Assembly (NCBI GenBank): GCA_951802425.1
Contig: OX637798.1
Coordinates: 434,001-498,000 of the forward strand
DNA: 64,000 nucleotides
Reading direction: 5' to 3'
Origin: Clavaria fumosa
Lineage: Eukaryota; Basidiomycota; Agaricomycetes; Agaricales; Clavariaceae
Made by a program: the position numbers and the translations under genes
Notes under the pieces: model-generated
The model's input: the letters and a program-made list of their open reading frames with translations, nothing else
What the model was told of the DNA's origin: nothing
The model's database searches: none
Part shown: positions 7,010-38,600 of the stretch, one piece after another
Layout: every line of letters begins with the position of its first letter
Numbering within the stretch: position 1 is the stretch's first letter

Positions 7010-7077
7010 GATTATGAGACCCGGACCTAGGGACTTATAAACACATCAATTGACTATCCAACTTCGCTTTTCTTGCA

Positions 7078-14556: not shown

Positions 14557-14783
14557 CATCAGCAAAACAGCTTGGCTAAATGTAAGTATGGACTGGTATG
14601 GACTGGTGTGTAACACCCCAAGTTGTCTTGGGGTGTTACATACCAGTCCATACCTCTCTACTGTACCATTTCATTCAATTGACCAGGTGGTGTGATGCAT
14701 TCCTCTGGTCAAATTTTGAATTGACTGAAAGTAGAAGTCAAGTGTCACATGAGGGATAATTGACTGCCCCTCCACCAGTATAT
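14557..14783 (+). mobile_element. Left half of a DNA transposon split by E1 and the inversion
   Basis: It starts with the MITE-family terminus catcagcaaaacagcttggc and carries the gtgtaacacccca hairpin (about 14,607-14,640). It then has 'tactgtaccatttcattcaattgacc'. The inverted partner of the last block, 'ggtcaattgaatggaatggtacagta', is the reverse complement of 32,628-32,653. E1 begins at 14,784 after TATAT. The other end of this element lies at 32,592-32,770, now in direct orientation. Confidence 0.75.
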
Positions 14784-15074
14784 TGTTAGGATCGCTTATG
14801 TAAGCCATCCCAAAGTGCAGTTGTGGAGAAACTGGGGAGGGTTGTTGGAAGGTCACATGACCTGTGGCTGGGTCGGATTATGTAATCATGTAAGATCACA
14901 TGACCTGGGGCCTGGGCGCATCACGTGATCCGAGGGTCCGAGCGTGGGAACGCCGGCAAGTGCCGAAGCGTTCGCTATAAGTACTTTCGCTTTTCCTTTT
15001 TTGTACTCTTTTCCCCTTATCTTAGTATTGTCGTCATGACCTTACACTTAAGTTGTGTGAGACCCAGTCTGATA
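14784..15074 (+). repeat. E1 5' LTR
   Basis: 291 bp. It carries gggtcgg and cctggggcc variants shared with the 5' LTR of E2 but not with its own 3' LTR. Confidence 0.93.
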
Positions 15075-15653
15075 TAATACTAAGATCTGCCTGTCTGCCC
15101 TAGCCCTGTGTCCTAACCCGGCTAGCCTGGACCCTTAATTTCAAACTGTGACACGTTGTCACAGCTCAGCCCCTATCATCCTCTTCTCCTTTACCCTGCC
15201 CGCAGTGTGTAACAGAACCGTGCGAAATTTTTACTGTGTGTAGATACACATGACCAGACCAGGAGGAAGTCAACTGTGACCCTCCCCAAGTGATACCAAG
15301 TGCCCAAGGCCCAGAACTTTGTTTTACAGCTACGTACCAGTGAATTGTGTAGTGTACAGGGCAAGGAAAGGCCCCTACATAGTCTTTCTGTAGTTTCCTG
15401 GTCCAGTGGACAGGGCCCTTGCTCTGTGACCATTGTCAGAAGGGCACATGGGCAACTCATTAGGAGTTGTGGAGCGACCACCTGGGACACCATTTGGGCC
15501 CCACGTTAACAAAAGTTTCATAGAATAAGAGTTCTATAGGTACATACTGTAAGTACACAGAAGAGCAGCCTAAGAGGACAGGACTGTTAAGAGATCGAAG
15601 AAATCCTGAGTGCCCAAGGCCTGGAACTTTATTTACAGCATCCAGGGCCTGTG

Positions 15654-16496
15654 ATGGCAGACCATGTCACCCCGCCTGTAGCCCAACCTATGAGGCTTGA
15701 CCTATCTGTTGCCCCCTTTGATGGGCAGAAAAGGAACTTCCATATGTTCCTCCAATCCCTTCACCTCCTGTTTATGGTGAACCCGACTGTCTATGCTGTG
15801 GACCTGGTGAAGGTCCTTTTTGCTCTGAGCAAAATTACTGGAGAAGGATTCGCTGCAGAGTGGGCGAATATGAAAGTGGAAGAGATCCTGGGTAGTGGCG
15901 AGGCCGGAACCTGGGCAGAGTTTGTGGAGGAGATGAAGCGCGCATTCGATGACCCAAATGACTGTGCGACTGCCCTTGCCGATATTGCAGGGCTGAAACA
16001 GGGTGCCATGACAGCACCAGAGTTCTTTGCGAAATTCGAGACGCTGTCCTGACGGGCGAAGTTGAGTGCAGAGAAGGACTCAGGAATCCTAGTCCATTGG
16101 CTGGAGTTGAACCTGAGTAGGAGGTTGGTGGAGAGAATCTATGGTGTCTCCCCGATGCCAGAGACATATGGAGAATGGAAGGTGCTGGCTGAGAGGCTTG
16201 ATGCCCAGCAAAGGTGACTGGATGGGATACTCACGGAACGGACACCGCAACCCACTGTGACCCCCGCGCGACCCACCGCGACCCTACCGCGACCTGCCGT
16301 GACCGTTTCGCGACCTCTTGTGACCCCTCTGCTGTGTACTCCAGATGTGGCCATGGCCTGAGGATGGGCCCCTGCTGATGAGAGATGTTGTTTCTGATGC
16401 CACCAGACTGGCCATGCTGTCCGTTTCTGCCCCCTGCCTGATACGCGTCTGCAGGTCCCAAGGGCCCAAACCCAGGCAGCACCATGTGCCCCCCAA
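15654..16496 (+). pseudogene. E1 Gag, broken by TGA codons
   Basis: Reading from ATG 15,654 gives MADHVTPPV, then a retrotransposon Gag domain (VAPFDGQKRNFHMFLQSL, FDDPNDCATALADI). A TGA lies at 16,050-16,052, followed in frame by RAKLSAEKDSGILVHWLEL. Further TGAs lie near 16,215, 16,360 and inside the zinc knuckle near 16,397; the knuckle otherwise reads CF-CHQTGHAVRFC. The last two and the first are also in E2. The protein would coat element RNA; it cannot be made whole without readthrough. Confidence 0.85.
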
Positions 16497-19400
16497 ATGG
16501 CGGAGGGATATGAGAAAGAGATTGCACGGCTCCGAGCTTGCATAGAGCTGTGTGTGAGAGAGAGGAGGACTCCCACTGGGGAGAAGAAGTGTGCCAGCCC
16601 CCTTTCCGTCCCTGTGCCTGCTGCAAGTATACCCCGATATACTATCTTGCAGCGGAGACATACCCGAATTGGGGCTGAGGTGAAGGAGGAAGTGAGACTG
16701 GCAGAGCGCCTAACCAGAGTGTGGCCAGAAGTGCGGAAACATGTGCCACGAGAGCTAGCCATCCAGGTGCACTTGGAGGCTTTCAGCACTGGCAAAGGGA
16801 CCACAATGAAGGCCCTTGTTGACTCAGGGTGCACCAACTGCTTCATGGATTTGGAGTGGGCGAAAGGAGTGGGACTGGAGCCATCTCTCCTGCTGAACCC
16901 AATCACCATGTATAATGTGGATGGGACACAGAACAGGGATGGAAAGGTCCGATATGGGATAGAGGTGCTGGTGAGAGTTGGTGACCACCAGGAGCGGATC
17001 CACTTTCTGCTGGGAAAGACCCAGTCCCACAAGGTCATCCTTGGGCATGACTGGCTCAAGCGGCATAACCCGGATATCGACTGGCAGAAGGCAGAGCTGA
17101 GCCTTACCCACTGCCCCCCACAGTGTTCCTCATCCCCTCGAGCCTCTGCACCCCTGAAAACGAGTACCCTCGCATCCACGAGTATTCTGGACACCCGTTT
17201 TTCCAACTCTGGCCCTACCCCCGATTGGCCCAGCTGCTACCCTTTGGTGTTTAGTGAAGCGAAGTGGGATGAACTTCCCCGCTCCCGACCAGACTTCGAT
17301 ATTAAGATCGAGTTCAAAAAGGACCCTGAGCACCTCTCCTCCAAGCTGTATTCTTTGACACGGCAGGAGATGGTGGAGATGAACCGTTGGGTGGATGAGC
17401 AGCTTGCTTCTGGACAAATCCGGCCCTCGAAATTCCCGTATGCCAGCCCCTTCTTCTTCAAACATGAGAAGGACAAACTGTGGCCAATCATCGACTACTT
17501 GAGGCTGAATGCACACCTGATCAAGGACAAGTACCCCCTCCCCCGCATCCCAGACACAGTGGATGTGCTTAAAGGAGTGTTGATCTACTCTAAGATTGAT
17601 GCAAAAGGAGGTTTCCCATCTATGCAGGTCTGGCCTGAGCACCAGCACCGCTGCGCCTTCCTGACACCCCGTGGACTCTTCGAACCAGCTGTCATGTGGT
17701 TTGGACTGCAGAATGCCCCTGCTACCTTCCAACGCTTCATGAATCATGTGTTGAGGGAGGAGATTGCAGGAGGACATGTGAGGGCCTATGTGGATGATGT
17801 CATTGTGTTTGCAGAGGACTTGGCTACACACCAGTACTGGATGGATCGGGTCTTGAGGAAGTTTGGAGAGAATGGGTTGTGTCTCAAACTCAGTAAATGC
17901 GAGTTTGAGAAGAGTGAGATCATCTTCCTGGGGATGAAGATCTCCCACAACAGACTAGAGCATGATCCGGCCAAGGGTGCGGCAGTCTGAGATTGGCCAC
18001 GTCCTAAGAATGTGAAGGATGTCCAGAGGTTCAATGGGATGCTGAACTACCTCCGCCGGCACATCCCGAATCTTTCTGCCTGGGCAAAGCCACTCTTCTG
18101 GCTGACTGGGAATGTTCCATGGAAATGGGAGGAGGAGGAGGAAGCAGCCTTCTGAGATCTCCACCAGGCACTCGTATCGGCCCCGGTCTTGGCTCTGCCT
18201 CAGGACAAAGGGAGATGGAAGGTAGAGACAGATGCAAGCAACCTGGCAACTGGTGGAGTGCTCTCGCAGCAGCAGACAGATGGAACCTGGAGAGTTGTTG
18301 ACTATATCTCCAAGGCCCTCACTGCAGCTGAGAAGAACTACGATGTGTACAACAAGGAGTTCTTGGCTGTGATTCGGGCACTTCGTGAGTGGCGAGCATA
18401 CCTCATTGGAGCAGAGGAGACGATCGAGATCTGGACGGACCATGCAAACCTCCAGTACTTCTGGAAGCCCCAGAAGTTGAAGCTGAGGCAGGTTCGTTGG
18501 GTTGGAGAGCTCCAGTGCTTTGACTTTGAGATAAAGTATAGCACTGGCAAGTTGAATACAAAGGCAGATGCACTCTCCCAGAGACTGGACTATGGAGAGA
18601 TGGTGGAGGAGGATGCACCGGTGCAGGTTTTCCTGGAAACGGAAGTCCGTGTGTCATTCACATCGGAAATGGAGACACTACTCCAGAAAAATAGCACGGT
18701 ACACATACAGAAGCTGGAGGAGCTTGATGATGAGTGGACACGAGATTGTGCTGGACTCTGGCGAAAGGGGATAGTCACTTGGGTCCCCCTAGGAGCTCGT
18801 GAGGCCGTTCTCAAGTTTGAGCATGACCTCCCTGCTGCTGGACACCCTGGGCCCTGGAAGTTGAGAGCAGCACTAGTGAAGGGTTATTGGTGGCCAGACA
18901 TGGTAAAAGATGCGGATCAGTATGCCCAGGGGTGTGAGACATGCCAGCGGACGAAGCCCGACCGTACCAAGTGTGCTGCCCCACTGCACCCCCATCTGGT
19001 GCCCGATGGTCCCTGGTCGGTGATCTCATGGGACATAGTCGGTCCCCTCCCCCTCTCCCGTGGACATAATGCCATCCTTGTTATTGTCGACAAATTCACG
19101 AAACGGACACTGCTCGAAGCGATCGGGCTCGACCTCACAGGACTTGGAGCAGCGTGTCTCCTCCAGGATCGAGTGTTTCGTGACCATGGAGTCCCTCACA
19201 AGGTTGTGAGTGACCGGGGGTCCCAGTTCGTGTCCCGCTTCATGAAGGAGTTCTACTCCATGATCCGGGTAAAGGCAAATCCAAGTACTGCCTTTCATCC
19301 GCAGACTGATGGACAGACGGAATGGGCGAACCAGGAGATGGAGATCTATCTCCGGGCTTACGTGGACCATCTCCAGGATGACTGGGCTGAATGGTTGTCC

Positions 19401-20102
19401 ACTGCGGAGTTTGCTCTTAATAATCGTGAGCACTCAGCAACAGGACAGACACCTTTCTTCCTCGATTATGGATGACACCCATGGAATGGGGGGCTCCAGC
19501 CACCTTCTGAGGTGAACCCGGCGGCGGACGAGTGGATGGCTAAGCTCACGGAGTCCCGAAGAGCAGCCAAGGAGGCAATGGAGAAAGCAGTGGCAGCGAT
19601 GAAGAAGAGCTACGATAAGGGGAAACGCCCAAGTCGGGAGTACTCTGAGGGAGATCTGGTCTGGCTGGATACTAGAAACTTGAAGATGGACCGGCCCTGT
19701 AAAAAGCTTGACAACAAGAGAGCAGGCCCCTTTGCAGTTGAGGAGAAGGTGGGACCTGCTGGGTATCGCCTCAAGCTCCCTTGGGCCTGGCGCATCCATC
19801 GGGTCTTCAATGAGTTGCTGTTGACACCATACCACCCCCCTTCCTTCCCTTCTCAGAACCTGCCTCCCCCTCCGCCCCCTACAATTGATGATGACCACCT
19901 GGAGTATGATGTGGAGGCGATCCTTGATGTTAAGAAGGTGGGGCGTGGAGTGAGATACCTGGTGAAGTGGTTGGGATACCCTGTAGAGGAGAACACTTGG
20001 GAGCCACGATGGAACCTCACCAATGTGGCACTGCTTCTCCGGGACTTCTTCCTTGCTCACCCCGACAAGGCCAAGCTAGCTGGTCGGGACGCCCAGCCTT
20101 AA
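16497..20102 (+). pseudogene. E1 Pol: protease, RT, RNase H, integrase, chromodomain; TGA-interrupted
   Basis: Domains in order: retropepsin LVDSGCTNCFMDLEWA (about 16,810); reverse transcriptase with YVDDVIVF (about 17,790); RNase H with VETDASNLATGG (about 18,220); integrase with a zinc finger ending CETCQRTK (about 18,937), WDIVGPLP and DRGSQF; and a chromodomain (YDVEAILDVKK...RYLVKWLGYPVEENTWEP, about 19,905-20,010). TGAs interrupt at 17,988-17,990, about 18,154 (TTC TGA GAT) and 19,473-19,475. E2 has TGA at the first and third sites but CAA at the second, as expected from a CGA decaying either way. The chromodomain suggests targeting to histone-marked heterochromatin, as known for chromoviruses. 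Confidence 0.92.
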
Positions 20103-20113
20103 GAGGGGGGTGA

Positions 20114-20404
20114 TGTTAGGATTGCTTATGTAAGCCATCCCAAGGTGCAGTTGTGGAGAAACTGGGGAGGGTTATTGGAAGGTCACATGACCTGTGGCTG
20201 GGTTGGATTATGTAATCATGTAAGATCACATGACCTGGTGCCTGGGCGCATCACGTGATCCGAGGGTCCGAGCGTGGGAACGCCGGCAAGTGCCGAAGCG
20301 TTTGCTATAAGTACTTTCGCTTTTCCTTTTTTGTACTCTTTCCCCCTTATCTTAGTATTGTCGTCATGACCTTACGCTTAATTTGTGTGAGACCCAGTCT
20401 GATA
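20114..20404 (+). repeat. E1 3' LTR
   Basis: 291 bp, differing from the 5' LTR at about nine sites. It is preceded by the polypurine tract aagagggggg (20,101-20,110) and followed by ATCAT. Confidence 0.93.
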
Positions 20405-20700
20405 ATCATCCCATGGCACAATTGCTCCGACGCTTGGACTCATTAAGAATTTCCCTTTACAGATCGGTCCGTGCATGTTCCATGTTCAAATGCAAGTGGC
20501 AGACATGCTCCCCTGCGAGGTTCTTGTCAGATGACCATTTTTTATGCTAACTGGCTTGCAAACAATCGATCATCCCCACGGGGCTCAGGATCTCATTCTG
20601 AACAATCCAAACACAGGGGAACGAATCATAGTGCCAACAAAAGAGCGAATCCCGATCTGCAAGACATTGAAGAAATTGCATCCGGATTTTTGATGGCTGG
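20405..20700 (+). pseudogene. Retropepsin-like fragment, second half
   Basis: Read from 20,410 in frame: HGTIAPTLGLIKNFPLQIGP, then a PCEVLVR-stop-PFFML stretch, later LILNNPNTGERIIVPTKERI. The pattern resembles the C-terminal half of aspartic-protease domains found in unclassified fungal retroelement proteins. Its N-terminal half (DQGSSIVAMRRDVWEKL) is on the minus strand at 38,600-38,387. The two join in frame across ATCAT if E2 and the inversion are removed. A TGA lies in the expected GRPFF position, probably a former CGA. Family recall is from memory; the join is seen in the sequence. Confidence 0.6.
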
Positions 20701-20754
20701 AGCCTCGAACATCTGCAAACCTATGGACTCACCTCTGGTCAATGCAGACACGGA

Positions 20755-21120
20755 AACTATATGCAGGCTATCATGCATTATGAATTGTAATTACAAATCA
20801 GACTCATGCATCAGTAATCAATTGTGTCATGCATTACCAATTTATAATTACAAATCAGACTCATGCATCAGTAGTTGTAATTGTTAATCAATTGTGTCAT
20901 GCATTAGCCTATATGAAGCATTGCATGCAGGCTATCATGCATTATGAATTGTAATTACAAATCAGACTCATGCATCAGTAACTGTAATTATTAATCAATT
21001 GTGTCATGCATCAGCTTATATGGAGCATTGCATCTAGGTAAACATGTATTATGCATTGTGATTACAAATCAGACTTGTGCATCAGTAATTGTAATTACAA
21101 ATCAACTTGGTGCATCATCA
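20755..21120. repeat. AT-rich irregular direct repeats
   Basis: Four to five imperfect copies of 'attacaaatcagactcatgcatcagta' alternate with 'atcaattgtgtcatgcatta' and 'gcatgcaggctatcatgcattatgaattg'. There is no ORF of note. Confidence 0.8.
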
Positions 21121-21624
21121 AAAGCAAAAATTCAACATTGAGCAGCCCTGTGCCTGGTCCCTCAAGATATGATAAATTATATATCAGAAAATCGGCAAAA
21201 ATCAGGAGATTCTGAATCTGAACATGACATGTTTGTATCTGCTTTCATTCAGAGTCAATTTGCAAAATACACAAAATATATTTGTTTTTCCTCAATTCTG
21301 CAGTACTCTGGCTTAAAATGGATAGCTAGAGGATTCACACACAACCTGTGGACATATGGAAAGGGTGTGAATTAGTTTAACAACCCTCCCACCATCTCTG
21401 TCACCTCCTGGAATCCATTACCAGGAATTAGAGTGTTAATGGCCTGGGAGCATGGCTATTTGTTAGATTGCAAAATCCAGCCATCAGACTAGACCATATG
21501 ACATATAATACAACCTCACAAAATCCCATAATATTTGGTGCAGATCTACAGATTCCCCATGTCTATTTCCCCAAAATTCTCAAAATCTCTCCCCAGATAG
21601 CCCCCTTTGTCAAATCACATATTT
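21121..21624. other. Spacer without recognisable content
   Basis: AT-rich sequence. The short ORFs here resemble nothing I recognise. No repeat shared with other parts of the window was seen. Confidence 0.5.
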
Positions 21625-22918
21625 GTCAGGACCCATTCATTTTTCCCCTATCCAAGCCAACACTATCGACACCTATGACCCTCCCAATGACCCTCTACCA
21701 CCTCGCGAGCCCCTCTACACACTTCCAAAACCCACTCTCCCCTTCCGGAAGCCTCTCCAACCTCCCCCACACTCACATGACACTCACAACCACCAAGCCG
21801 TACTCGTGATGCCTCCTACTATCTCACTGCACACACATACTCCACCTGGACCCACCAATTCCATGTGTGACATGCTGTTGCCCATCTTCTTCCACCAGCA
21901 CATGACTTGCCACATGGCACCCCCGGCGCTACTGCTACCAGCACCAATACATTGCCAGTGTTATGGCTGTTACCCACATGACTTCCTGCCCAAGGTCACC
22001 TGCATCACTAGCATCACCCACATGACCATTCCTATGACCTTGCAACCTTAACACTCAAACATGCCACCAACGGTCAGTGGTATATACCTTTCAAATTATG
22101 TTCCCCTTCTTCTCCTCAGTCAACTATAACTACGTAGCTCATGATCTGAGGATCCCCCTGTAGTTATAGTTATGTATATACTTATTTAACTAGGTTGTGA
22201 CCTGTGACAGGTCATCTTCATGACCTTACCTATGCATTCCCAACCCCTTGCAACCTTAGTAGAACATGCGCACAGTCACTCCTTGACTAGTTATACCCTG
22301 TACTACTATAGTCTCGTCACCTGGCAACCTTTTTACTTTTCCTTTTCTATTATACTCTCTGTATGTATGTATATAAAGTCTCGCATGTACTTACAGTACT
22401 CTAGACTTGATATTGATGCACTTTGGTTTAAGCTTGAGGCCACAATGCCCCTTGAGCTTGGAACCATCACGATTGATAGGTCTTGTCTCTCTTGGTGACC
22501 TCAACATTGCCAAGGCACTTCTGCTTTACTCTGACTTGTCCTCCACACTTAAGTATTTCCTTTACTTTGTCTTGGTATTGATCTTTGAACCTTACAGGTT
22601 CTCCTGTTGGTTGGCAAAGTCATTGCCTTCACCGACACACTTCTTAACACCATCACGACTACCCATGACCCTTCCAATATCATCTCTTTCCTTCACCTTG
22701 TCTTTCTCTTCCTTATGCTTCATCGGTCGACCTCACAACCTTCTCAGCATTACCTATTTCTCCCACCTGGTCTATTTCTGTTTTTACGCTTCGACAGTCA
22801 ACCTCATGACCTTCTCAGCAACATCTCTTGTCTCCTCACTTGTCTCTTTCCATCTTATGCCTTGTCTACTGACTTTGTGACCTTCTTAACATCTCTGTGA
22901 CCTTCCAGGACCAAGCAT
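21625..22918 (+). repeat. Dispersed repeat, copy B (CpG-depleted)
   Basis: It aligns along the reverse complement of copy A from 'tttgtcaggacccattcattttt' to 'ccttccaggaccaagcat'. The GGTCGCGA sites of copy A appear here as tttgtgacctt, ctcacaacctt and similar. Followed by 'catcaggaaaaaaag', a sequence also upstream of the transposase-like gene. Confidence 0.8.
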
Positions 22919-23010
22919 CATCAGGAAAAAAAGTTCAAACAATATAGTACTATGTAGTCATGGTAGCAGCAGTAGCTCAGTAGCTAGTAACGAGTTATAT
23001 AGACCCAGTA

Positions 23011-23130
23011 GATCCCATATATTGCTCTGTAGTAATGGTAGTTCCCATATATTGCTCTGTAGTAACAGTAGTTCCCATATATTGCTCTGTAGTAATGGTA
23101 GTTCTTATATATTGCTCTGTAGCACTGAGT
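23011..23130. repeat. 30-bp tandem repeat, four units
   Basis: Four head-to-tail 30-bp units of gttcccatatattgctctgtagtaatggta type, the first and last diverged. The bases on either side (22,919-23,010 and 23,131-23,350) hold no gene. Confidence 0.9.
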
Positions 23131-23355
23131 AGATCCCATACAATGCACCAGAGTATACAAAGGACATAAATGTGATTCAATGGTACATGGTAGTTCACTT
23201 GTCTCAAATGGTAGCCCGGGTTGATACTACAGTAGACTATGGTAGTGCTATGTGCCGCTTCCTGCTGCCACCACTGCTCCTTCCTTCCTCTGCACACCAG
23301 CCACCACAAAATCAATGGCCCAGGTCCCCGCTGTCAGTCTGGGACTGCAGTAGGG

Positions 23356-23698
23356 TGTCAACAAGTGTTGGGTTGACTCCCGGGTATTCGAGGGACTCAG
23401 GTAGGGTCGGCCGAATGGGAGCAAAGCAAGGATGTGATAGAAAGTAACAACCTAAGGGATTGTTACAGGTGAATACGGCTACTTATATACTACAGGGGAG
23501 TGAGTCATAGCGCAGCATGGAAGAAGCATGTAGTCCGTGCACAAGGGGTGAGGCCGAGTATGACTCATGCATGATAGCATAAGAGGGGTGCGGCATGAGG
23601 CATGTGATACATGGGAAGGGGATGTGTGACGCATGTTGTGATAGGTGAAAAGGGGGGTGTGACGTACGAAAGGGGGGTGAAGCGGAAGAACTCTAACA
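23356..23698 (-). repeat. 3' LTR of the 7-kb chromovirus
   Basis: 343 bp, TGTTAGAG...TTGACA in the sense strand. Differences from the 5' LTR are at catgcatgat / catgcgtgat, ggatgtg / ggacgtg and gacgca / gacaca, all CpG transitions. Confidence 0.95.
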
Positions 23699-23736
23699 TT
23701 ATCCCCCCTCAGTGGTCCGTCGTCTCGACGGGCCCG

Positions 23737-24489
23737 CTAGGCCTCCGGACTCTCCTGTCGTTCGCGTGGTTGTGGCTCCGTCGGCGGTTCGAGTTCGGTG
23801 GGGGGGTCGATGCTCGTGTCGCGTGTGTCGGGCACGAGAGGGTGTTCGTAGGCGTCGGCGGGGACAATCCACGGGGTCATGACGTCGGTGGAAACTGGTA
23901 TGACCCAGGGGGGGCCTGTGCGACTATGGTGTACAGCCCATTCTTCTTGTAAGATAGGCTCCGGTGGTAACAGGACCTCGAATCGCAGCCTTGAGTTCCG
24001 AGAGTTCACCCATATCTCAACGAGGATGGGGGAAGCACGGAGGACGCGTCGCTGTTGCTCAAACTGCAGTCCTCGCAGTTCGGTCCACATCACGCGGCTA
24101 AAGCTTACGCTGAGCCGCTCGGCCATCCTGCGGAGCCAGACGTCGTCTTCAGGCTCTAGGAGCTCTCGGTTTTGTCGAAATTGTGGTATCCGCGAAGGGG
24201 GGTCATCCGTCATCAGCGGTGGGGGGTCTAGTCCCAATACTCGGCATGCATGGGGGATCCGCACTGCGTCTAAGATATGGCGCATACGGGCAGTTGTTCC
24301 AGGGGACGACGGGGGGTGTTGGAGTGCCGGTGGCGTACCTCGCGGGTCTGGTCCAGGTCGCAGGTCGAGCGCGGGTCGTTGGCGAGTGGTCTCAGCAGGG
24401 GGTGGGCGCGGTAGGTGGTTCGGCCATCCCGCCGCACGGCGAGTGTAAGTTCCGCGGCGTGGGGGTTGAGGAGTATGGTCGGGCGGCAT
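23737..24489 (-). CDS. Accessory ORF downstream of Pol in the chromovirus
   Basis: An open 250-codon frame between the chromodomain and the 3' LTR, on the element's sense strand. The first 80 residues are Pro/Arg-rich and probably disordered. The middle (about 85-200) looks folded, with DDVWLRRMAERLSVSFSRVM, LRGLQFEQQRRVLRASPILV and a Trp-rich EEWAVHHSRTGPPWVIPV stretch. The tail is Pro/Glu-rich. There is no signal peptide and no hydrophobic segment, so it is not an envelope protein by appearance. I do not recognise the family. Its survival in a young element suggests it is translated, perhaps from a subgenomic or readthrough product. Confidence 0.6.
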   Translation of the reverse strand: MPPDHTPQPPRRGTYTRRAAGWPNHLPRPPPAETTRQRPALDLRPGPDPRGTPPALQHPPSSPGTTARMRHILDAVRIPHACRVLGLDPPPLMTDDPPSRIPQFRQNRELLEPEDDVWLRRMAERLSVSFSRVMWTELRGLQFEQQRRVLRASPILVEIWVNSRNSRLRFEVLLPPEPILQEEWAVHHSRTGPPWVIPVSTDVMTPWIVPADAYEHPLVPDTRDTSIDPPTELEPPTEPQPRERQESPEA

Positions 24490-24590
24490 GGTAGCAGGTA
24501 TTGGTTGTAAGGGGAGAGGAGGAAGGTGTTTGGTGGGCGAAGTCGCTCGTGGTTTTCTTTTTAAGTGCTCGACCCTGAGTGTGTGATTGC

Positions 24591-27500: not shown

Positions 27501-28058
27501 TAGGTTTCGGAGGCCATAGCCATAGTCCACGATGTGGCAGTCCTTTCTTTTGCATTTGTCAAAGCGAATGTATTTTTCAAACCACCAGATACTGGGGTTA
27601 TGGTATCGGAGCCAATCGTGTCCCAGAATCGCCGGGTGGCCGGTAACTCGTCCCAGTAGGAACTGCTTGATCTCGACGTGGCCTCCAATGTTGAGTCGTA
27701 GAGCCACCGAATGTTTAAAAGCCCCTGATACATTCGTGGTGCCATCGATATTTTTGAATATTATAGGAGTTTCGAGTTTTGCAAGATTCATTTTCCTGGC
27801 GGTGGCCCATTCCAGGTCCATAACAGACATCGTACAGCCAGAGTCGATTAGCAGTTTGATGTCATAGGTCTCTTTAGTGTCCAAGGTGGTTACGAATCCT
27901 GGCATGTCCAATTGCCGTTCTCCTCCTTTCCCATATGTGGTTCTGGGGTCGGTGTCCCAGTCTACATCATCATTATACCCTGGGAGTTTCTTAGAGGTGA
28001 GGTCCTTGAGGGTGTGCTTAGCCCTCTCAGCCTCTTTTGGCAATGGGAACAATGGCAT
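24591..28058 (-). CDS. Chromovirus Pol: protease, RT, RNase H, integrase, chromodomain
   Basis: The main frame (24,921-28,058, 1,045 residues from the first ATG) contains retropepsin LIDSGCTMSVMDLEWA, reverse transcriptase with YIDDILVA, RNase H with EVDASNYATGG, an integrase zinc finger ending CEKCQRTK, WDLIG, and DRGSQFVSNFM. A single TGA at 24,921-24,923, in GPAAY-stop-LNLPATWKIH and most likely a former CGA, separates it from the last piece, 24,887-24,591. That piece holds a chromodomain (YDVEEVLKSRRHRRKLQYLV, WTGYPHEDNTWEP). The frame stays open upstream of the ATG toward the Gag stop and is -1 relative to Gag, so Pol is probably made by -1 frameshifting near 28,125. Without readthrough the chromodomain is lost. 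Confidence 0.92.
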
Positions 28059-28123
28059 ATTATTTGCAGGTTGTTTTACATGGCGGCGGGCCGGAACAAT
28101 ATAAAAGGATCCTGCCTTAGCAC

Positions 28124-29416
28124 TCAGGCGGATCCTTGCTGAAAATCCTCTTCTCCTACGTTCGACGTCGCTGCAGTCGTCTCTGGTCCAGGTGTCGGTG
28201 CTCTGGGCCTCTGTTGGATATGCAATTGATCTCTCAATTGCGCGATTGTGTTCTCCATCTCCTCGAAGTCGCTTCGAGTAGTAATAGAGGCGGCATAAGA
28301 AGGGTTGAACGATGTGAGGGAGGCCGGATGCGATTGTGGATAGGCGGGCACTGGGTATGGAGACAGCGGGGGCGGTGCATAGTACCCAGGGGGCGACTGC
28401 ATTTCAAATGCACTGCCGAGTCTCGCTTGCTGTCTGGGCATGGCGCGACGTTGGGGTGGCTCTGGGCACAACCGTGCGGGGTGTCCAACTTGTCCGCAAT
28501 TGTAACAAACAAGCGGGCGGCGGGGGCCACTCCCTCGGCTCGTGTCCATAGGGGTGCCTTGTCTCGTTCCGGGTGGGGGCTGCCTGTTCCACTGTGCAGG
28601 CGGCGGTCCTTGTTGTTGTTGTTGTTGTTGCTGCTGCTGGGGGCGCGGTTGCCATTGTGCCTGCTGTGGCTGTGTGGGTGGTGCATTCCACTGGTTCTGT
28701 CCTCCCCATACTGCCTGTGGTTGCCACTGGGGTGAGCGCCAGTAGCGGTTCTGCGGGGGTTGGCGCTGTACGGGCTGATTCCAGACGGGGCGTGGTGTTG
28801 CTTGTGCCCGCATCTCCCTTTGTACTGCCGTATGCAGTTGATGTTGTCTGTCGAGGCGTATAGCCAATACGCGAAAGGCTTGGTAGTCGGCGGGCTGGTC
28901 CGCACACGCGAGAATTTTCTCCATGAGTTTCGGGTGTAGTGCTCTCATTAGCAGAGCGTGGATCATGTTCCAGTGGGTATCTTCCTCGTACCTGGCTCGG
29001 CTCATCAAGGTCTCGAGCCTCTGGAAGAACTGCGCGGCGTCCATGCCTACTTGCTTGAAGTTGTTCAGTTCCTGAACAGCTAACGCTTGGTCTTCGATGG
29101 GAGCAAAAGTCTCCCTCATGCGTGCTTCGAATGTGGCCCAAATTACGTTCTCGCCTCCTGGTTCTAGTAAGACATTCGCGGCTTGGTTCGCCCACTCTGC
29201 CGCGTACTTCTCCGTCATGTGGCTCAAGCAAAACACCACCTTATGGAAGTCGGTAGGGTATTTCGCCTCGTTTAGTCGGAACTCTAGGCGTAAGCTCCTC
29301 AAGAACGTTTGGAACTCATGCCTTTCTCCAGTATATGGAACGATTTTCAGTGAAAACGCAGCAGGTGGGAGGGGCGCTGCTGGTGCGGGTTCGGCGTCGG
29401 GGGCTACGTCAGCCAT
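28124..29416 (-). CDS. Chromovirus Gag
   Basis: An intact 430-residue frame. The N-terminus is MADVAPDAEPAPAAPLPPAA, followed by a capsid-like domain (PYTGERHEFQTFLRSLRLEF, FAPIEDQALAVQELNNFKQV, YQAFRVLAIRLDRQ). A Gln/Pro-rich linker with an 11-Gln run (residues about 260-270) precedes the zinc knuckle CYNCGQVGHPARLC near residue 313. The start ATG is only a few bases after the stop of the upstream 134-residue ORF, so ribosomes may terminate and restart. Confidence 0.9.
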   Translation of the reverse strand: MADVAPDAEPAPAAPLPPAAFSLKIVPYTGERHEFQTFLRSLRLEFRLNEAKYPTDFHKVVFCLSHMTEKYAAEWANQAANVLLEPGGENVIWATFEARMRETFAPIEDQALAVQELNNFKQVGMDAAQFFQRLETLMSRARYEEDTHWNMIHALLMRALHPKLMEKILACADQPADYQAFRVLAIRLDRQHQLHTAVQREMRAQATPRPVWNQPVQRQPPQNRYWRSPQWQPQAVWGGQNQWNAPPTQPQQAQWQPRPQQQQQQQQQQGPPPAQWNRQPPPGTRQGTPMDTSRGSGPRRPLVCYNCGQVGHPARLCPEPPQRRAMPRQQARLGSAFEMQSPPGYYAPPPLSPYPVPAYPQSHPASLTSFNPSYAASITTRSDFEEMENTIAQLRDQLHIQQRPRAPTPGPETTAATSNVGEEDFQQGSA

Positions 29417-29420
29417 GCTC

Positions 29421-29825
29421 TCAATCTAGTTCTTCGAGGTAAATGCGCAGGGGGTCTTGGAAAATATCTATTCGTAGACGGTCTTGTAGTGAACCGAACG
29501 TAAGGTCGGTCTGCGCTTCAGTGGATCGGTATGTAGGGGGTGCTTCGTCGGTCTGCGTTGCTGCAGACAAGTGTGTAGGTTCTTCGAGTTCTTCGAGAGC
29601 GCTTTGGTAGTCGCTTTCTTCCTCGAGGGGATCTTCTTCTTCGGCTAGGAACTCCTGGGTTTCTTGCAGGTACGCTTCTTCTGCTGCGGCTTCAGTCAGT
29701 GCAGCTAATAACTGGTTTCGGAAGGTTCGCCACTCTGGCAGGTGTGCGATTGACAGTGGGTTGTTCGTGCTTGGATCTCTCGGTAGGCAAAGTCTTCTGG
29801 TAGCAAAGTGGTATCTCGGCGCCAA
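29421..29825 (-). CDS. Small acidic ORF upstream of Gag in the chromovirus
   Basis: 134 codons on the sense strand between the 5' LTR and Gag, ending 4 bp before the Gag ATG. A basic first third (MAPRYHFATRRLCLPR) is followed by a strongly acidic middle (EFLAEEEDPLEEESDY) with two related TQTDE / AQTDL motifs. I do not recognise a family. It could be a regulatory leader ORF or an accessory protein. Start choice is the first ATG in a long open frame. Confidence 0.5.
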   Translation of the reverse strand: MAPRYHFATRRLCLPRDPSTNNPLSIAHLPEWRTFRNQLLAALTEAAAEEAYLQETQEFLAEEEDPLEEESDYQSALEELEEPTHLSAATQTDEAPPTYRSTEAQTDLTFGSLQDRLRIDIFQDPLRIYLEELD

Positions 29826-30076
29826 CTGCGCAGCCTCGGATAGTCTTGAGTATAGGAATCTTTCGTAGGTCCTGGATTGTGGTGTGTTCGGCGGTGTCAG
29901 TTGTTCAAAGTCTGTATCGGTGTCCAGTCCAAGGAGGGCCCTCCTCCTAATCGATCGTTCGTACGATGTCCAAAAACGCGCCAGTTTTCTTCTCGAGATA
30001 CACGAGTCTTGCTTCGACTCGGGCGAGGGTGGGTGCCTAGGTCCATGAGGAGGTAGGCGGGGGAGAGGTTGTTACT

Positions 30077-30419
30077 TGTCAACAAGTGTTGGGTTGACTC
30101 CCGGGTATTCGAGGGACTCAGGTAGGGTCGGCCGAATGGGAGCAAAGCAAGGATGTGATAGAAAGTAACAACCTAAGGGATTGTTACAGGTGAATACGGC
30201 TACTTATATACTACAGGGGAGTGAGTCATAGCGCAGCATGGAAGAAGCATGTAGTCCGTGCACAAGGGGTGAGGCCGAGTATGACTCATGCGTGATAGCA
30301 TAAGAGGGGTGCGGCATGAGGCATGTGATACATGGGAAGGGGACGTGTGACACATGTTGTGATAGGTGAAAAGGGGGGTGTGACGTACGAAAGGGGGGTG
30401 AAGCGGAAGAACTCTAACA
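30077..30419 (-). repeat. 5' LTR of the 7-kb chromovirus
   Basis: 343 bp, directly followed by TAGGG and the CCG satellite. A leader without a clear tRNA-complementary primer site runs from 30,076 toward the 134-residue ORF. Confidence 0.95.
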
Positions 30420-30424
30420 TAGGG

Positions 30425-31455
30425 GGCCTGGGCCATTGCTGCTGCTGCTGCCGCCGCTGCCGCCACTGTCGCTGCCATCGCCGCCGCCGCCATCGCTGTC
30501 GTTGCCGCCGTCGTTGCCACCGCTGTTGCTGCCGTTGCCGCCATCACCGCCGCCGCCATCACTGTCATTGCCGCCGCTGTTGCCGCCATCGCCGCCGCCA
30601 CCGTCGCTGTCGTTGCCGCCGCTGTTGCCGCCATCGCCGCCGCCGCCGTCGCTGTCATTGCCGCCGCTGTTGCCGCCATCGCCGCCGCCGCCGTCGCTGT
30701 TGTTGCCGCCGTCGTTGCCACCGCTGTCGCCACCGTCGTTGCCACTGCTGTTGCCGCCGTCATTGCCACCGCTGTCGCCGCCGTTGCCGCCATCGCCGCC
30801 GCCGCCGTCGCTGTTGTTGCCGCCGCTGTTGCCGCCATTGCCGCCGCCGCCGTCACTGTCGTTGCCGCCATTGCCGCCGCCGCCGTCGCTGTCATTGCCG
30901 CCACCGTCATTGTCGTTGCTGCCGCCGTTGCTGTCGTTGCTGTCGCCCTTGCCGTTGCTGTCACTGCCGCCGCTGTCGTTGCCGCCGCCGTTGCTGTCAT
31001 TGCCGTCGCCCTCGCCGTTGCTGTCACTGCCACCACTGTCGCTGCCGCCGCTGTTGTTGCCGCCGCCGTCGCTGTCGTTGCTGCCGCCGTCGCTGCCGCT
31101 GCTGTCGTTGCCGCCGCCGTCACTGTCGTGTCGCTGTCGTTGCCGCCGCCATCGCCATTGCTGCCGCTGCTGTCGCCGCCGTCGCCGTCGCTGTTGTTGC
31201 TGCCACCGCCGTTGCTGTCGTTGCCGCCGCCGTCGCCATCGCCGTTGTTGCCACCACCGCCGTCGCTGTCATTGCCGCCACCGTCGCCGTTGCTGCCGCC
31301 GCCACCATCGTTGTTGCTGCCGCTGCCGTCGATGTTGCTGCCGCCGCTGCCACCCTCGCTGTTGCCGCCGCTGTTGCCGTCACTGTTGCCGCCGCCGCCG
31401 TCGCTGCCGCCGCTGTTGCTCTGTTGCTGCCGCCGCCGCCGCTGTTGCGTTGCTG
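30425..31455. repeat. CCG/TTG/TCG trinucleotide satellite with 45-bp higher-order unit
   Basis: About 1 kb built almost wholly from the triplets ccg, ttg, tcg, ctg, cca and atc. A 45-bp unit (ttgccgccatcgccgccgcc...gctgtcattgccgccgctg) recurs most clearly between 30,570 and 30,720. All reading phases stay open, which produces spurious Pro/Leu, Arg/Cys and Gly/Asn/Ala ORFs on both strands. Confidence 0.9.
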
Positions 31456-31479
31456 CTGCCGCTGCCGTCGTCGTAATTG

Positions 31480-31985
31480 CTGGAGGAGAGAGGGAGGGGG
31501 AGGAGAGAGGGAGGGAGGAGAGGGAGGAGAGGGAGGAGAGTGAGAGGGAGGAGAGTGAGAGAGAGGAGACGGAGAAGTGCCGCCGCACTCACCATCGCCC
31601 TGTAGATTAAAAAAATGAAAAGAATCATGGAAAAAAGGGAGAGGGCGCACCTGGTGGCCCCTCGCTGAGGGTGCCGCCGCTGCCGTGGTTGTCACTGAAG
31701 GAGAGGGAGAGGGAGAGGGAGGAGGTGCCGCCGCCGCCGCCGTCATCGCTGGAGGAGAGAGAGAGGGTGAGGGTACCGCCGCCGTCATCGTCATCACTGG
31801 AGGAGGGTGAGGGTGAGGGTGCTGCCGCCGTCGTCGTCATCGCTGGAGGTGAGGGTGAGGGTGCTGTCGCCGCTGTCGTCGTTGCTGTGGATGGGAGAAA
31901 GGGAGGAGAGAGGGTGAGGGTGCCGTCGCCGCTGTCGTCGTTGCTGGGGATGGGAGAAAGGGAGGAGAGAGGGTGATGGTGGGAG
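31480..31985. repeat. GA-rich tract and further tandem repeats beside the satellite
   Basis: A purine run of ggaggagagggaggagag type fills about 31,482-31,582. From about 31,690 units of ggagaGAGGGTGAGGGTGCCGTCGCCG...TCGTCGTTGCTG type repeat, with two close copies of 'gatgggagaaagggaggagagagggtga' at about 31,890 and 31,950. No gene. Confidence 0.75.
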
Positions 31986-32004
31986 GCAGAGAGAACGACA
32001 AGTT

Positions 32005-32180
32005 CAACACAGAGCATGTGACGACTTTCTGGGACGGCAATTCCCACCATGCCACAAGTACAGCAAGCTTACCAAATCAGTGACCCACAAATGCTCTGGC
32101 CCATTTCTCAGTCAATTCTCAAGCAATTCTCAAGATTTTTTTTTTTCATAAGACACTACTTGATCTGTAGATTAATGTGG
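32005..32180 (+). mobile_element. 5' fragment of the terminal-inverted-repeat family seen at 61,961
   Basis: 'gactttctgggacggcaattcccac' and, about 70 bp on, 'tcagtgacccac...ctcagtcaattct' align with 61,959-62,085 of the 1-kb element. The rest to 32,591 is AT-rich and carries nothing I can identify. Confidence 0.5.
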
Positions 32181-32591
32181 ATATGTCAAAAAAAATAATT
32201 GATATTTTCTGTACTAATTTACCAAAATAAATGGGTACCTAGCTTTATCCAAGCTTTGAACACCTTTTTGGAGCAATCTTTTGGAAGAGATCATATTCAT
32301 CCAAACTATCATGATTGATTTGATGTGTATAAATATATTACTGTCAAGTTGCCATCCAAGCCCCAAGCTGATGAACAATTATATCAGATTCATGGAATGC
32401 CTGGCCATTCTAATGGACCATGCAAGCCAGCAACTCCACCATGCTTTGACACTACCTTGATCATTGAAAACAAATCACAGTGGAAAGAGGATGGATTAAA
32501 AGGTTAGTCTAAGGCTATCAATTGTCTACAATTTGATGTCAACTTCAACTAGGTCTTCATGTAGCAAGATTTTTGATCTTCCAAAGCATCT

Positions 32592-32770
32592 CATCAGCAA
32601 AACAGCTCAGCTGAGTTGTCAGTATACTGTACCATTCCATTCAATTGACCTGTCATGCATCATGCACCTCCCCAAATTGGCCAAAAATCACACTGGTCAC
32701 ACATCATTTGAGGAATTGGTCAATTTGTAAGGTGAAATTCCCTTTTTGGGTGACAGTTACCTAATATATA
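32592..32770 (-). mobile_element. Right half of the split DNA transposon
   Basis: It begins catcagcaaaacagctcagctgag and contains tactgtaccattccattcaattgacc, matching the left half at 14,557-14,783 but in direct, not inverted, orientation. It ends in ATATA against the E2 3' LTR, the complement of the TATAT that precedes E1. Confidence 0.75.
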
Positions 32771-33061
32771 TATCAGACTGGGTCTCACACAACTTAAGCG
32801 TAAGGTCATGACGACAATACTAAGATAAGGGGAAAAGAGTACAAAAAAGGAAAAGCGAAAGTACTTATAGCGAACGCTTCGGCACTTGCCGGCGTTCCCA
32901 CGCTCGGACCCTCGGATCACGTGATGCGCCCAGGCACCAGGTCATGTGATCTTACATGATTACATAATCCAACCCAGCCACAGGTCATGTGACCTTCCAA
33001 CAACCCTCCCCAGTTTCTCCACAACTGCACTTTGGGATGGCTTACATAAGTGATCCTAACA
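32771..33061 (-). repeat. E2 3' LTR
   Basis: 291 bp. It carries gggttgg and cctggtgcc variants shared with the 3' LTR of E1. Confidence 0.93.
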
Positions 33062-33085
33062 TCACCCCCCTCTTAAGGCTGGGCG

Positions 33086-36000
33086 TCCCGACCAGCTAGC
33101 TTGGCCTTGTCAGGGTGAGCAAGGAAGAAGTCCCGGAGAAGCAGTGCCACATTGGTGAGGTTCCGTCATGGCTCCCAAGTGTTCTCCTCTACATGGTATC
33201 CCAACCACTTCACCAGGTATCTCACTCCACACCCCACCTTCTTAACATCAAGGATCGCCTCCACATCATACTCCAGGTGGTCATCATCAATCGTAGGGGG
33301 CGGAGGGGGAGGCAGGTTCTGGGAAGGGAAGGAAGGGGGGTGGTATGGTGTCAACAGCAACTCATTGAAGACCCGATGGATGCGCCAGGCCCGAGGGAGC
33401 TTGAGGCGATACCCAGCAGGTCCCACCTTCTCCTCAACTGCAAAGGGGCCTGCTCTCTTGTTGTCAAGCTTTTTACAGGGCCGGTCCATCTTCAAGTTTC
33501 TAGTATCCAGCCAGACCAGATCTCCCTCAGAGTACTCCCGACTTGGGCATTTCCCCTTATCGTAGCTCTTCTTCATCGCTGCCACTGCTTTCTCCATTGC
33601 CTCCTTGGCTGCTCTTCGGGACTCCGTGAGCTTAGCCATCCACTCGTCCGCTGCCGGGTTCACCTCAGAAGGTGGCCAGAGCCCCCCATTCCATGGGTGT
33701 CATCCATAATCGAGGAAGAAAGGTGTCTGTCCTGTTGCTGAGTGCTCACGATTATTAAGAGCAAACTCCGCAGTGGACAACCATTCAGCCCAGTCATCCT
33801 GGAGATGGTCCACATAAGCCCGGAGATAGATCTCCATCTCCTGGTTCGCCCGTTCTGTCTGTCCATCAGTCTGCAGATGAAAGGCAGTACTTGGATTTGC
33901 CTTTACCCGGATCATGGAGTAGAACTCCTTCATGAAGCGGGACACGAACTGGGACCCCCAGTCACTCACAACCTTGTGAGGGACTCCATGGTCACGAAAC
34001 ACTCGATCCCGGAGGAGACGCACCGCTCCAAGTCCTGTGAGGTCGAGCCCGATCGCTTCGAGCAGTGTCCGTTTCATGAATTTGTCGACAATAACAAGGA
34101 TGGCATTATGTCCACAGGAGAGGGGGAGGGGACCGACTATGTCCCATGAGATCACCGACCAGGGACCATCGGGCACCAGATGGGGGTGCAGTGGGGCAGC
34201 ACGCTTGGTACGGTCGGGCTTCGTCCGCTGGCATGTCTCACACCCCTGGGCATACCGATCCGCATCTTTTACCATGTCCGGCCACCAATAACCCTTCACT
34301 AGTGCTGCTCTCAACTTCCGGGGCCCAGGGTGTCCAGCAGCGGGGAGGTCATGCTCAAACTTGAGAACGGCCTCACGAGCTCCTAGGGGGACCCAGGTGA
34401 CTATCCCCTTTTGCCAGAGTCCAGCACGATCTCGTGTCCACTCATCATCAAGCTCCTCCGGCTTCTGTATGTGTACCGCGCTATTTTTCTGGAGTAGCAT
34501 CTCCATTTCCGATGTGAATGACACATGGACTTCCATTTCCAGGAAAACCTGCACTGGTGCATCCTCCTCCACCATCTCTCCATAGTCTGGTCTCCAGGAG
34601 AGTGCATCTGCCTTTGTGTTCGACTTGCCAGTGCGATACTTTATCTCAAAGTCAAAGCACTGGAGCTCTCCAACCCAACAAACCTGCCTCGGCTTCAACT
34701 TCTGGGGCTTCCGGAAGTACTGGAGGTTTGCATGGTCCGTCCAGATCTCAATCATCTCCTCTGCTCCAATGAGGTATGCTTGCCACTCGCGAAGTGCCCG
34801 AATCACAGCCAAGAACTCCTTGTTGTACACATCGTAGTTCTTCTCAGCTGCAGTGAGGGCCTTGGAGATATAGTCAACAACTCTCCAGGTTCCATCTGTC
34901 TGCTGCTGCGAGAGCACTCCACCAGTTGCCAGGTTGCTTGCATCTGTCTCTACCTTCCATCTCCCTTTGTCCTGAGGCAGAGCCAAGACCGGGGCTGATA
35001 TGAGTGCCTGGCGGAGATCTTGGAAGGCTGCTTCCTCCTCCTCCTCCCATTTCCACGGAACATTCCCAGTCAGCCGGAAGAGTGGCTTTGCCCAGGCAGA
35101 AAGATTCGGGATGTGCCGGCAGAGGTAGTTCAGCATCCCATTGAACCTCTGGACATCCTTCACATTCTTAGGACATGGCCAATCTCAGACTGCCGCACCC
35201 TTGGCCGGATCATGCTCTAGTCTGTTGTGGGAGATCTTCATCCCCAGGAAGATGATCTCACTCTTCTCAAACTCGCATTTACTGAGTTTGAGACACAACC
35301 CATTCTCTCCAAACTTCCTCAAGACCCGATCCATCCAGTACTGGTGTGTAGCCAAGTCCTCTGCAAACACAATGACATCATCCACATAGGCCCTCACATG
35401 TCCTCCTGCAATCTCCTCCCTCAACACATGATTCATGAAGCGTTGGAAGGTGGCAGGGGCATTCTGCAGTCCAAACCACATGACAGCTGGTTCGAAGAGT
35501 CCACGGGGTGTCAGGAAGGCACAGCGGTGCTGGTGCTCGGGCCAGACCTGCATAGATGGGAAACCTCCCTTTGCATCAATCTTAGAGTAGATCGACGCTC
35601 CTTTAAGCACATCCACTGTGTCTCGGATGCGGGGGAGGGGGTACTTGTCCTTGATCAGGTGTGCATTCAGCCTTGAGTAGTCGATGATTGGCCGCAGTTT
35701 GTCCTTCTCATGTTTGAAGAAGAAGGGGCTGGCATACGGGGATTTCGAGGGCCGGATTCGTCCAGAAGCAAGCTGCTCATCCACCCAACGGTTCATCTCC
35801 ACCATCTCCTGCTGTGTCAAAGAATACAGCTTGGAGGAGAGGTGCTCAGGGTCCTTTTTGAACTCGATCTTAATATTGAAGTCTGGTCGGGAGCAGGGAA
35901 GTTCATCCCACTTTGCTTCACTAAACACCAAAGGGTAGTGGCTGGGCCAATCGGGGGTAGGGCCAGAGTTGGGAAAACGGGTGTCCAGAATACTCGTGGA

Positions 36001-36678
36001 TGTGAGGGTACTCGTTTTCAGGGGTGCAGGGGCTCGAGGGGATGGGGAACACTGTGGGGGGCAGCGGGTAAGGCTCAGCTCTGCCTTCTGCCAGTCGATA
36101 TCCGGGTTATGCCACTTGAGCCAGTCATGCCCAAGGATGACCTTGTGGGACTGGGTCTTTCCCAGCAGAAAGTGGATCCGCTCCTGGTGGTCACCAACTC
36201 TCACCAGCACCTCTATCCCATACCGGACCTTTCCATTCCTGTTCTGCGTCCCATCCACATTATACATGGTGATTGGGTTCAGCAGGAGAGATGGCTCCAG
36301 TCCCACTCCTTTCGCCCACTCCAAATCCATGAAGCAGTTGGTGCACCCTGAGTCAACAAGGGCCTTCATTGTGGTCCCTTTGCCAGTGCTGAAAGCCTCC
36401 AAGTGCACCTGGATGGCTAGCTCTCGTGGCACATGTTTCCGCACTTCTGGCTGCACTCTGGTTAGGTGCTCTGCCAGTCTCACTTCCTCCTTCACCTCAG
36501 CCCCAATTCGGGTATGTCTCTGCTGCAAGATGGTATATTGGGGTATACTTGCAGCAGGCACAGGGACGGAAAGGGGGCTGGCACACTTCTTCTCCCCAGT
36601 GGGAGTCCTCCTCTCTCTCTCACACAGCTCTATGCAGGCTCGGAGCCATGCAATCTCTTTCTCATATCCCTCCGCCAT
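33086..36678 (-). pseudogene. E2 Pol, TGA-interrupted
   Basis: Frames 36,678-35,185, 35,163-33,700 and 33,663-33,166 are one Pol broken by TGA only. Retropepsin LVDSGCTNCFMDLEWA, RT YVDDVIVF, RNase H VETDASNLATGG, integrase CETCQRTK...WDIVGPLPLS and a chromodomain ending TWEP are all visible. The stops at 35,185-35,187 and 33,700-33,702 coincide with stops in E1. The one at 33,166-33,168 is private: E1 has CGA (Arg) at that codon. Confidence 0.92.
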
Positions 36679-37521
36679 TTGGGGGGCACATGGTGCTGCC
36701 TGGGTTTGGGCCCTTGGGACCTGCAGACGTGTATCAGGCAGGGGGCAGAAATGGACAGCATGGCCAGTCTGGTGGCATCAGAAACAACGTCTCTCATCAG
36801 CAGGGGCCCATCCTCAGGCCATGGCCACATCCGGAGTACACAGCAGAGGGGTCACAAGAGGTCGCGAAATGGTCACGGCAGGTCACGGTAGGGTTGCGGT
36901 GGGTTGCGTGGGGGTTGCAATGGGTTGCGGTGTCCGTTCCATGACTATCGTGTCAAATCGCCTTTGCTGCGCATCCAGTCTTTCTGCCAGCACTTTCCAT
37001 TCTCCATAAGTCTCTGGCATTGGGGAGACACCATAGATCCTCTCCACCAACCTCCTACTCAAGTTCAACTCCAGCCAATGGACCAGGATTCCTGAGTCCT
37101 TTTCTGCACTCAACTCCGCCCGTCAGAACAGCATCTCGAATCTCGCAAAGAACTCTGGTGCCGTCATGGCACCCTGTTTCAACCCTGCAATATCGGCAAG
37201 GGCAGTTGCACGGTTGTTCGGGTCATCAAACGCCCACTTCGTCTCCTCCACAAACTCCACCCAGGTTCCGGCCTCGCCACTACCCAGGATCTCTTCCACT
37301 TTCATATTCGCCCATTCAGCAGTGAATCCATCTCCAGTAATTTTGCTCAAAGCAAAGAGGACCTTCACCAGGTCCGTAGCATAGGTAGTTGGGTTCGCCA
37401 TAAACAAGAGGCGAAGTGATCAGAGGAACGTACGGAAGTTCCTTTTCTGCCCATCAAAGGGGGCAACAGATAGGTCAAGCCTCATAGGTTGGGCTACAGG
37501 CGGGGCGACATGGTCTGCCAT
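36679..37521 (-). pseudogene. E2 Gag, TGA-interrupted
   Basis: ATG at 37,521 starts MADHVAPPVAQPMRLDLSVAPF. A TGA near 37,425 replaces the CAA of E1 (FLQSL), and another at about 37,123 is shared with E1. The zinc knuckle reads CF-stop-CHQTGHAVHFC with the same TGA as E1. Confidence 0.85.
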
Positions 37522-38095
37522 CACAGGCCCTGGATACTGTAAATAAAGTTCTGGGCCTTGGGCACTCAGGATTTCTTCGATCTCTTAACAGTCCTGTCCT
37601 CTTAGGCTGCTCTTCTGTGTACTTATGTACCTATAGAACTCTTATTCTATGAAACTTTTGTTAACGTGGGGCCTGAATGGTGTCCCAGGTGGTTGCTCCA
37701 CAACTCCTAATGAGTTGCCCGTGCGCCCTTCTGACAATGGTCACAGAGCAAGGGCCCTGTCCACTGGACCAGGAAACTACAGAAAGACTATGTAGGGGCC
37801 TTTCCTTGCCCTGTACACTACACAATTCACTGGTATGTAGCTGTAAAACAAAGTTCCGGGCCTTGGGCACTTGGTATCACTTGGGGAGGGTCACAGTTGA
37901 CTTCCTCCTGGTCTGGTCATGTGTATCTACACACAGTAAAAATTTCGTGCAGTTCTGTTACACACCGCGGGCAGGGTAAAGGAGAAGAGGATGATAGGGG
38001 CTGAGCTGTGACAACGTGTCACAGTTTGAAATTAAGGGTCCAGGCTAGCCGGGTTAGGACACAGGGCTAGGGCAGACAGGCAGATCTTAGTATTA

Positions 38096-38386
38096 TATCA
38101 GACTGGGTCTCACACAACTTAAGCGTAAGGTCATGACGACAATACTAAGATAAGGGGAAAAGAGTACAAAAAAGGAAAAGCGAAAGTACTTATAGTGAAC
38201 GCTTTGGCACTTGCCGGCGTTCCCACGCTCGGACCCTCGGATCACGTGATGCGCCCAGGCCCCAGGTCATGTGATCTTACATGATTACATAATCCGACCC
38301 AGCCACAGGTCATGTGACCTTCCAACAACCCTCCCCAGTTTCTCCACAACTGCACCTTGGGATGGCTTACATAAGCGATCCTAACA
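38096..38386 (-). repeat. E2 5' LTR
   Basis: 291 bp with gggtcgg and cctggggcc variants (read in sense), like the 5' LTR of E1. Confidence 0.93.
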
Positions 38387-38600
38387 ATGATTCCATGTGG
38401 ATCACTCGTTCGGAGTGCAGCGGATTGCCGAGCTTCTCCCACACATCCCGCCGCATTGCTACAATAGAGCTACCCTGGTCGAGAAGGCACTCCGCAGCGA
38501 TTCAACTGTCCAATATGCCTTCAACGATGCGGAGCAGAGTGGCATCGACTGCCACTACAAGATCTGAGGTGTCTGGAGCCATAACATTCATGTAGAGCGT
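38387..38600 (-). pseudogene. Retropepsin-like fragment, first half
   Basis: Minus-strand reading gives MNVMAPDTSDLVVAVDATLL, a TGA, then LLDQGSSIVAMRRDVWEKL and PLRSERVIHMES. DQGSSIV is in the position of the catalytic D-x-G motif of aspartic proteases from fungal retroelements. Translation continues in frame at 20,410 if E2 and one copy of ATCAT are removed and the inversion is undone. Confidence 0.6.

Follow-up and report, generated by a model that had tools for sequence, protein, structure and literature searches.

A probable inversion by ectopic recombination between two Ty3/Gypsy copies in Clavaria fumosa, read from a single genome assembly

The locus considered here, from the basidiomycete Clavaria fumosa, holds two copies of one long terminal repeat (LTR) retrotransposon in opposite orientation, and neither of them is flanked by its own target-site duplication (TSD). 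The question that it raises is how each copy came to stand beside one half of the duplication of the other, and what this says about the order of the sequence between them. Ectopic recombination between LTR retrotransposons occurs in fungi, where homologous dispersed copies are substrates for rearrangement, as the two copies would be here, and inversions mediated by transposons are usually inferred from the comparison of chromosomes or strains. The stretch of DNA analyzed, called the window, is 64,000 nucleotides long, and all coordinates are given in its numbering. A protein search yielded 176 hits; among the 120 listed, those with a species name belong to Agaricomycetes, the best one matching at 68% across 41% of the query. 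An earlier note had proposed an inversion of about 12.4 kb between the two copies; we consider an inversion by ectopic recombination between them the best explanation, with a probability of about 0.8, based on the evidence presented below.

The first copy, E1, occupies positions 14784–20404 of the + strand (5621 bp) and the second, E2, positions 32771–38386 of the − strand (5616 bp), at a distance of 12,366 bp. Both start with TGTTAGG, end with CTGATA, and have LTRs of 291 bp; when the window is compared with itself, they appear as inverted blocks of 4855 bp (96%) and 765 bp (98%). The Pfam domains of both are ordered as in Ty3/Gypsy elements, namely protease, reverse transcriptase, RNase H, and integrase, in two separate frames per element, and this order, the LTRs, and the short TSDs place them in that group, with the protease and integrase core of E2 matching below the curated cut-offs. 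Over 5616 bp, 192 substitutions separate the two copies (∼3.4%), and 176 of them are transitions; 104 substitutions oppose CpG to TpG or CpA, and 34 oppose TpG to CpA.

Regarding the body of E2, element positions ∼712–1860 (window ∼37675–36527), which probably correspond to gag as judged by position, form a divergent haplotype with many non-CpG differences. Among 28 copies compared, nearly its whole length is common only to L071, while L077 carries just a few of its sites, e.g., 712–713 and 839–840; three of the 28 (L055, L063, and L067) aligned poorly and were dropped from one comparison of the family. The haplotype suggests recombination between subfamilies of E.

E1 is preceded by TATAT (14779–14783, + strand) and followed by ATCAT (20405–20409, + strand), whereas E2, read on its own strand, is preceded by ATCAT (38391–38387) and followed by TATAT (32770–32766). 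Thus, neither element has a 5-bp duplication of its own, and both duplications are matched crosswise, as had been noticed earlier and is borne out here: from the 5-mer frequencies of the window, a random pair matches with p = 0.0011, and both crosswise matches would arise by chance with a probability of ∼1e-6. A baseline for this family was obtained from 30 other copies, chosen among the top matches to pieces of E1; 11 without an end at the expected place were dropped, and the 19 with both ends found had an exact 5-bp TSD in 16 cases, one mismatch in one, and no match in two (12, 1, and 1 in a batch of 14, and 4, 0, and 1 in a batch of five). Because of the way they were picked, these copies are young. 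Of the two unmatched copies, one lies on C5, with its 5′ end at 1707508 on the − strand (L059, L089), and has the flanks CTCCA/GTTAT; the other lies on C9, at ∼1389393–1395007 on the + strand (L110, L111), and has GGTGA/TAAGT. Provided that the two ends belong to one element in each case, these copies are candidates for further ectopic exchanges.

The crosswise flanks would be accounted for by two insertions of one abundant Ty3/Gypsy family, of which the first, alpha, would have entered a repeat, A, at TATAT, and the second, beta, would have entered another repeat, B, at ATCAT in the opposite orientation. A reciprocal crossover between alpha and beta, i.e., ectopic or non-allelic homologous recombination, would then have inverted everything between the crossover points. 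The present E1 and E2 would be the two chimeric products, their target duplications having been exchanged.

The empty site of insertion alpha is found in the other copies of repeat A. The sequence to the left of E1 has at least 39 other genomic matches of 180 bases or more; seven of the 39 other long matches listed (the best 40 of 98 candidates) were read, and in all seven the left part is followed without a break by the sequence to the left of E2 in reverse complement, with the junction reading exactly CCAGTATATATTAGG or its reverse complement. In the window, repeat A lies at 13265–14783 (+ strand) outside the inverted segment, and at 30420–32770 (+ strand, next to E2) and 22919–23355 (+ strand, 99.8% to L104 and L105) inside it. 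Thus, one side of the repeat is 13265–14783, the other is 32770–30420 plus 23355–22919, and a further element, E3, fills the gap. The part at 30420–31440 is a GC-rich tandem repeat, for which the alignment to other copies is only ∼74%. The end at 13265 was seen in three of the seven loci, and the end at 22919 in both loci that were extended.

Repeat A is a probable DNA transposon. On the + strand, CATCAGGAAAAA stands at each of its two termini (13265 and 22919), which are therefore direct where inverted ends would be expected; by eye, the repeat has 2-bp flanks (AT/AT and CC/CC) in the window and in one other copy. The earlier note had described a transposon whose ends are now direct instead of inverted and whose halves rejoin at TATAT. 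This description stands, but the pieces that it named, 14557–14783 and 32592–32770, are only the middle of the larger repeat, the ends of which are at 13265 and 22919; the outer ends of these pieces, at 14557 and 32592, read by eye CATCAGCAAAACAGCT and its inverse. The join is thereby lengthened from a few hundred bases to ∼4.3 kb, including the tandem repeat of ∼1 kb. In addition, a piece at 14013–14180, within repeat A and its other copies, resembles portions of the E LTR (∼80–94% similarity), and is perhaps an older LTR captured by the repeat.

The empty site of insertion beta is found in a similar way. The sequence to the right of E1 also has at least 39 other genomic matches, and in all 19 loci read, out of the 39 other matches listed (the best 40 of 137 candidates), it is directly preceded by the sequence that lies beyond E2. 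The site itself reads ATCAT in six of these loci and ATCCT in 13. The left half of repeat B in the window, 38387–38600 (− strand), is a fragment of an aspartyl-protease-like pseudogene, and the right half, 20405–20761 (+ strand), is in frame with it relative to the paralogue L033; this has an open frame across the site, and the two window pieces align to its residues 47–117 and 117–213. Where a split retropepsin ORF had been proposed, the halves do join in frame at ATCAT, but each window piece contains one in-frame stop, so that repeat B is a pseudogene here, and the Asp_protease_2 match of the paralogue is weak (E 8.6e-5, 23.6 bits versus a curated cut-off of 24.3). Another multicopy repeat is present in direct copies at 22147–22438 and 38600–38890, which would turn inverted around the B fragment once the inversion is undone.

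E3, at 23356–30419 (− strand) within repeat A, is a different Gypsy-type LTR element that serves as an internal control. Both of its flanks are inside the segment, and it retains a matching TAGGG duplication, as the exchange predicts.

The LTRs provide a further line of evidence, given that both LTRs of one insertion are identical at the start. LTR site 31 is G in the 5′ LTR of E2 and in the 3′ LTR of E1. The LTRs of the other copies compared have A there: all 28 of the 5′ LTRs, and all 12 of the 3′ LTRs covering the site (two more did not cover it). The 30-mer with G at this site occurs at two places in the 48.8-Mb assembly, 20130–20159 (+ strand) in the E1 3′ LTR and 38341–38370 (− strand) in the E2 5′ LTR, compared to 478 places for the form with A. 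This distribution, hereafter G31, supports the pair of LTRs that would be expected of insertion beta under the exchange.

A second private variant, T126, is distributed differently. Its 28-mer is found at two places genome-wide, 20220–20247 (+ strand) and 32928–32955 (− strand), i.e., in both 3′ LTRs, while the form with G occurs at 224 places, and this would be predicted neither by the exchanged nor by the present pairing unless a conversion is added; no single pairing of the LTRs would explain both G31 and T126. Summed differences amount to 15 (9+6) for the present pairing, 13 (4+9) for the exchanged one, and 11 (4+7) when 5′ is compared with 5′ and 3′ with 3′, hence the totals do not favor the exchanged pairing. 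T126 would most likely stem from a gene conversion involving the two 3′ LTRs, before, with, or after the inversion, and convergence or a polishing error is a possible source as well. The proposed chimerism of E1 and E2 is partly supported, by one of these markers, G31, which is in the exchanged pair, T126 being in both 3′ LTRs.

The presumed LTR pair of beta is divergent, with three CpG-type and six other differences, two of which (sites 190–191) are, by eye, a TG/CA pair at a lost CpG; the other LTR pairs had no non-CpG difference in 14 of 14 cases, which is partly an effect of choosing best-match copies. The E1 3′ LTR (20114–20404) carries non-CpG changes at sites 61, 229, and 269 that were not found together in the other LTRs compared. 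A donor subfamily was considered as the source of these private changes, but a genome-wide search for the 29-mer with T at site 269 found it only in this LTR and thus gave no donor for this change.

Regarding the length of the inverted segment, the 12.4 kb proposed earlier is a minimum, because the breakpoints must be within E1 and E2. Site 31 differs between E1 and E2 in the 5′ and in the 3′ LTRs, in opposite senses; if it was not converted, the crossover would lie between 14814 and 20144 in E1, with its mirror at 38356–33031 in E2, and the inverted length would be ∼12.9 to 23.5 kb. Placing the crossover from internal variants was rejected: past element position 2117, the sites that distinguish L071 from two ordinary copies are divided between six shared with E1 and six shared with E2, and none of these 12 is in the non-CpG list.

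The segment between E1 and E2 consists of the B fragment, other repeats, repeat A, and E3, and only repeats were recognised in it, so an effect of the inversion on genes is unlikely. The frames scanned with Pfam within 23740–30071 (− strand) contained retroelement domains or nothing, the scan covering frames of 200 codons or more outside the tandem-repeat frames at 30.2–31.8 kb and two overlapping frames at 28.1–28.9 kb. Non-transposon domains appear rightward, from ∼42 kb. Outside the segment, 7054–11250 encodes a Copia-type polyprotein in an uninterrupted frame of 1398 aa.

The proposal of the earlier note, an inversion between the two inverted Gypsy copies, is in general strengthened by the paralogous empty sites (7/7 and 19/19), G31, and the intact duplication of E3, while T126 requires an added conversion and the LTR totals do not single out the exchanged pairing. 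The other ways to read the locus differ in how well they accommodate these data. One falls within the explanation favored here, namely a real but polymorphic inversion, in which the nuclei of a dikaryon, or the cells, differ in orientation and the assembly displays one of the two. As E1 and E2 are ∼3.4% apart, they could recombine again, and T126 suggests a second exchange; we regard this case as rather unlikely. If E1 and E2 kept recombining, the segment might flip repeatedly and both orientations might coexist, e.g., one in each nucleus of the dikaryon, which is a doubtful extension. Were it true, G31 and T126 would be traces of two or more separate exchanges between E1 and E2.

Another reading, which we judge unlikely, is an assembly artefact, in which the original order is preserved in the organism, with A intact around alpha and B around beta, and the flanks were misjoined through the 5.6-kb copies. 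The unflipped order does restore all joins, the run of repeats on the left is ∼7.1 kb and so longer than E1 alone, and A itself (13265–14783) is multicopy. Moreover, a crossover in the cell and one in the assembler look the same in the sequence alone. Five tandem TTAGGG units were found nowhere in the assembly, which is uninformative about its quality, although telomere-to-telomere completeness cannot be demonstrated in this way. Against an artefact, the assembly comprises 48.8 Mb in 17 contigs despite 478 exact copies of the LTR 30-mer, which suggests that copies of 5.6 kb were as a rule spanned; of the 19 other copies in which both ends were located, 16 have flanks that match, and the window contains no N. 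In addition, T126, being common to both 3′ LTRs, points to a real exchange, unless it was copied by polishing. We thus favor an event in the living genome, which would have involved its recombination machinery.

Finally, that E1 and E2 are unrelated insertions with decayed duplications, accidental crosswise matches, and no rearrangement is hardly credible: two of the 19 other copies delimited at both ends do have unmatched flanks, but the crosswise agreement has a chance of ∼1e-6, two different repeats are broken precisely at these sites in a crosswise manner, G31 pairs the copies at two places versus 478, and the paralogous empty sites contradict it.

An inversion by ectopic recombination between E1 and E2 can be compared with a published case. 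The inversion 2z3 of Drosophila buzzatii was generated by the transposon Galileo and is read in the report on it as a product of ectopic recombination, in which two oppositely oriented copies occupy the breakpoints, the target duplications are exchanged, and the copies are chimeric; the non-inverted chromosomes were sequenced, and many variable sites place the exchange within 141 bp (PMC2775673). Like the copies described there, E1 and E2 are homologous, lie in opposite orientation at the breakpoints, and have exchanged target duplications. Unlike Galileo, which is a DNA transposon, they are LTR retrotransposons that flank a short segment made of repeats, and here the empty sites come from paralogues only (7/7 and 19/19), with one marker of chimerism, in contrast to the data described for 2z3 (PMC2775673).

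Exchange between elements is an already known mechanism, and the change considered here is of an ordinary type, but its documentation from a single genome sequence is unusually complete. As the elements are inserted in repeats whose intact copies provide the empty sites, and as insertion-specific LTR variants are available, the polarity and mechanism of the change can be largely read from one assembly. The same test of flanks and LTR variants, applied to every copy of the family, could count past exchanges in this genome, and two of the 19 copies compared so far already have unmatched flanks.
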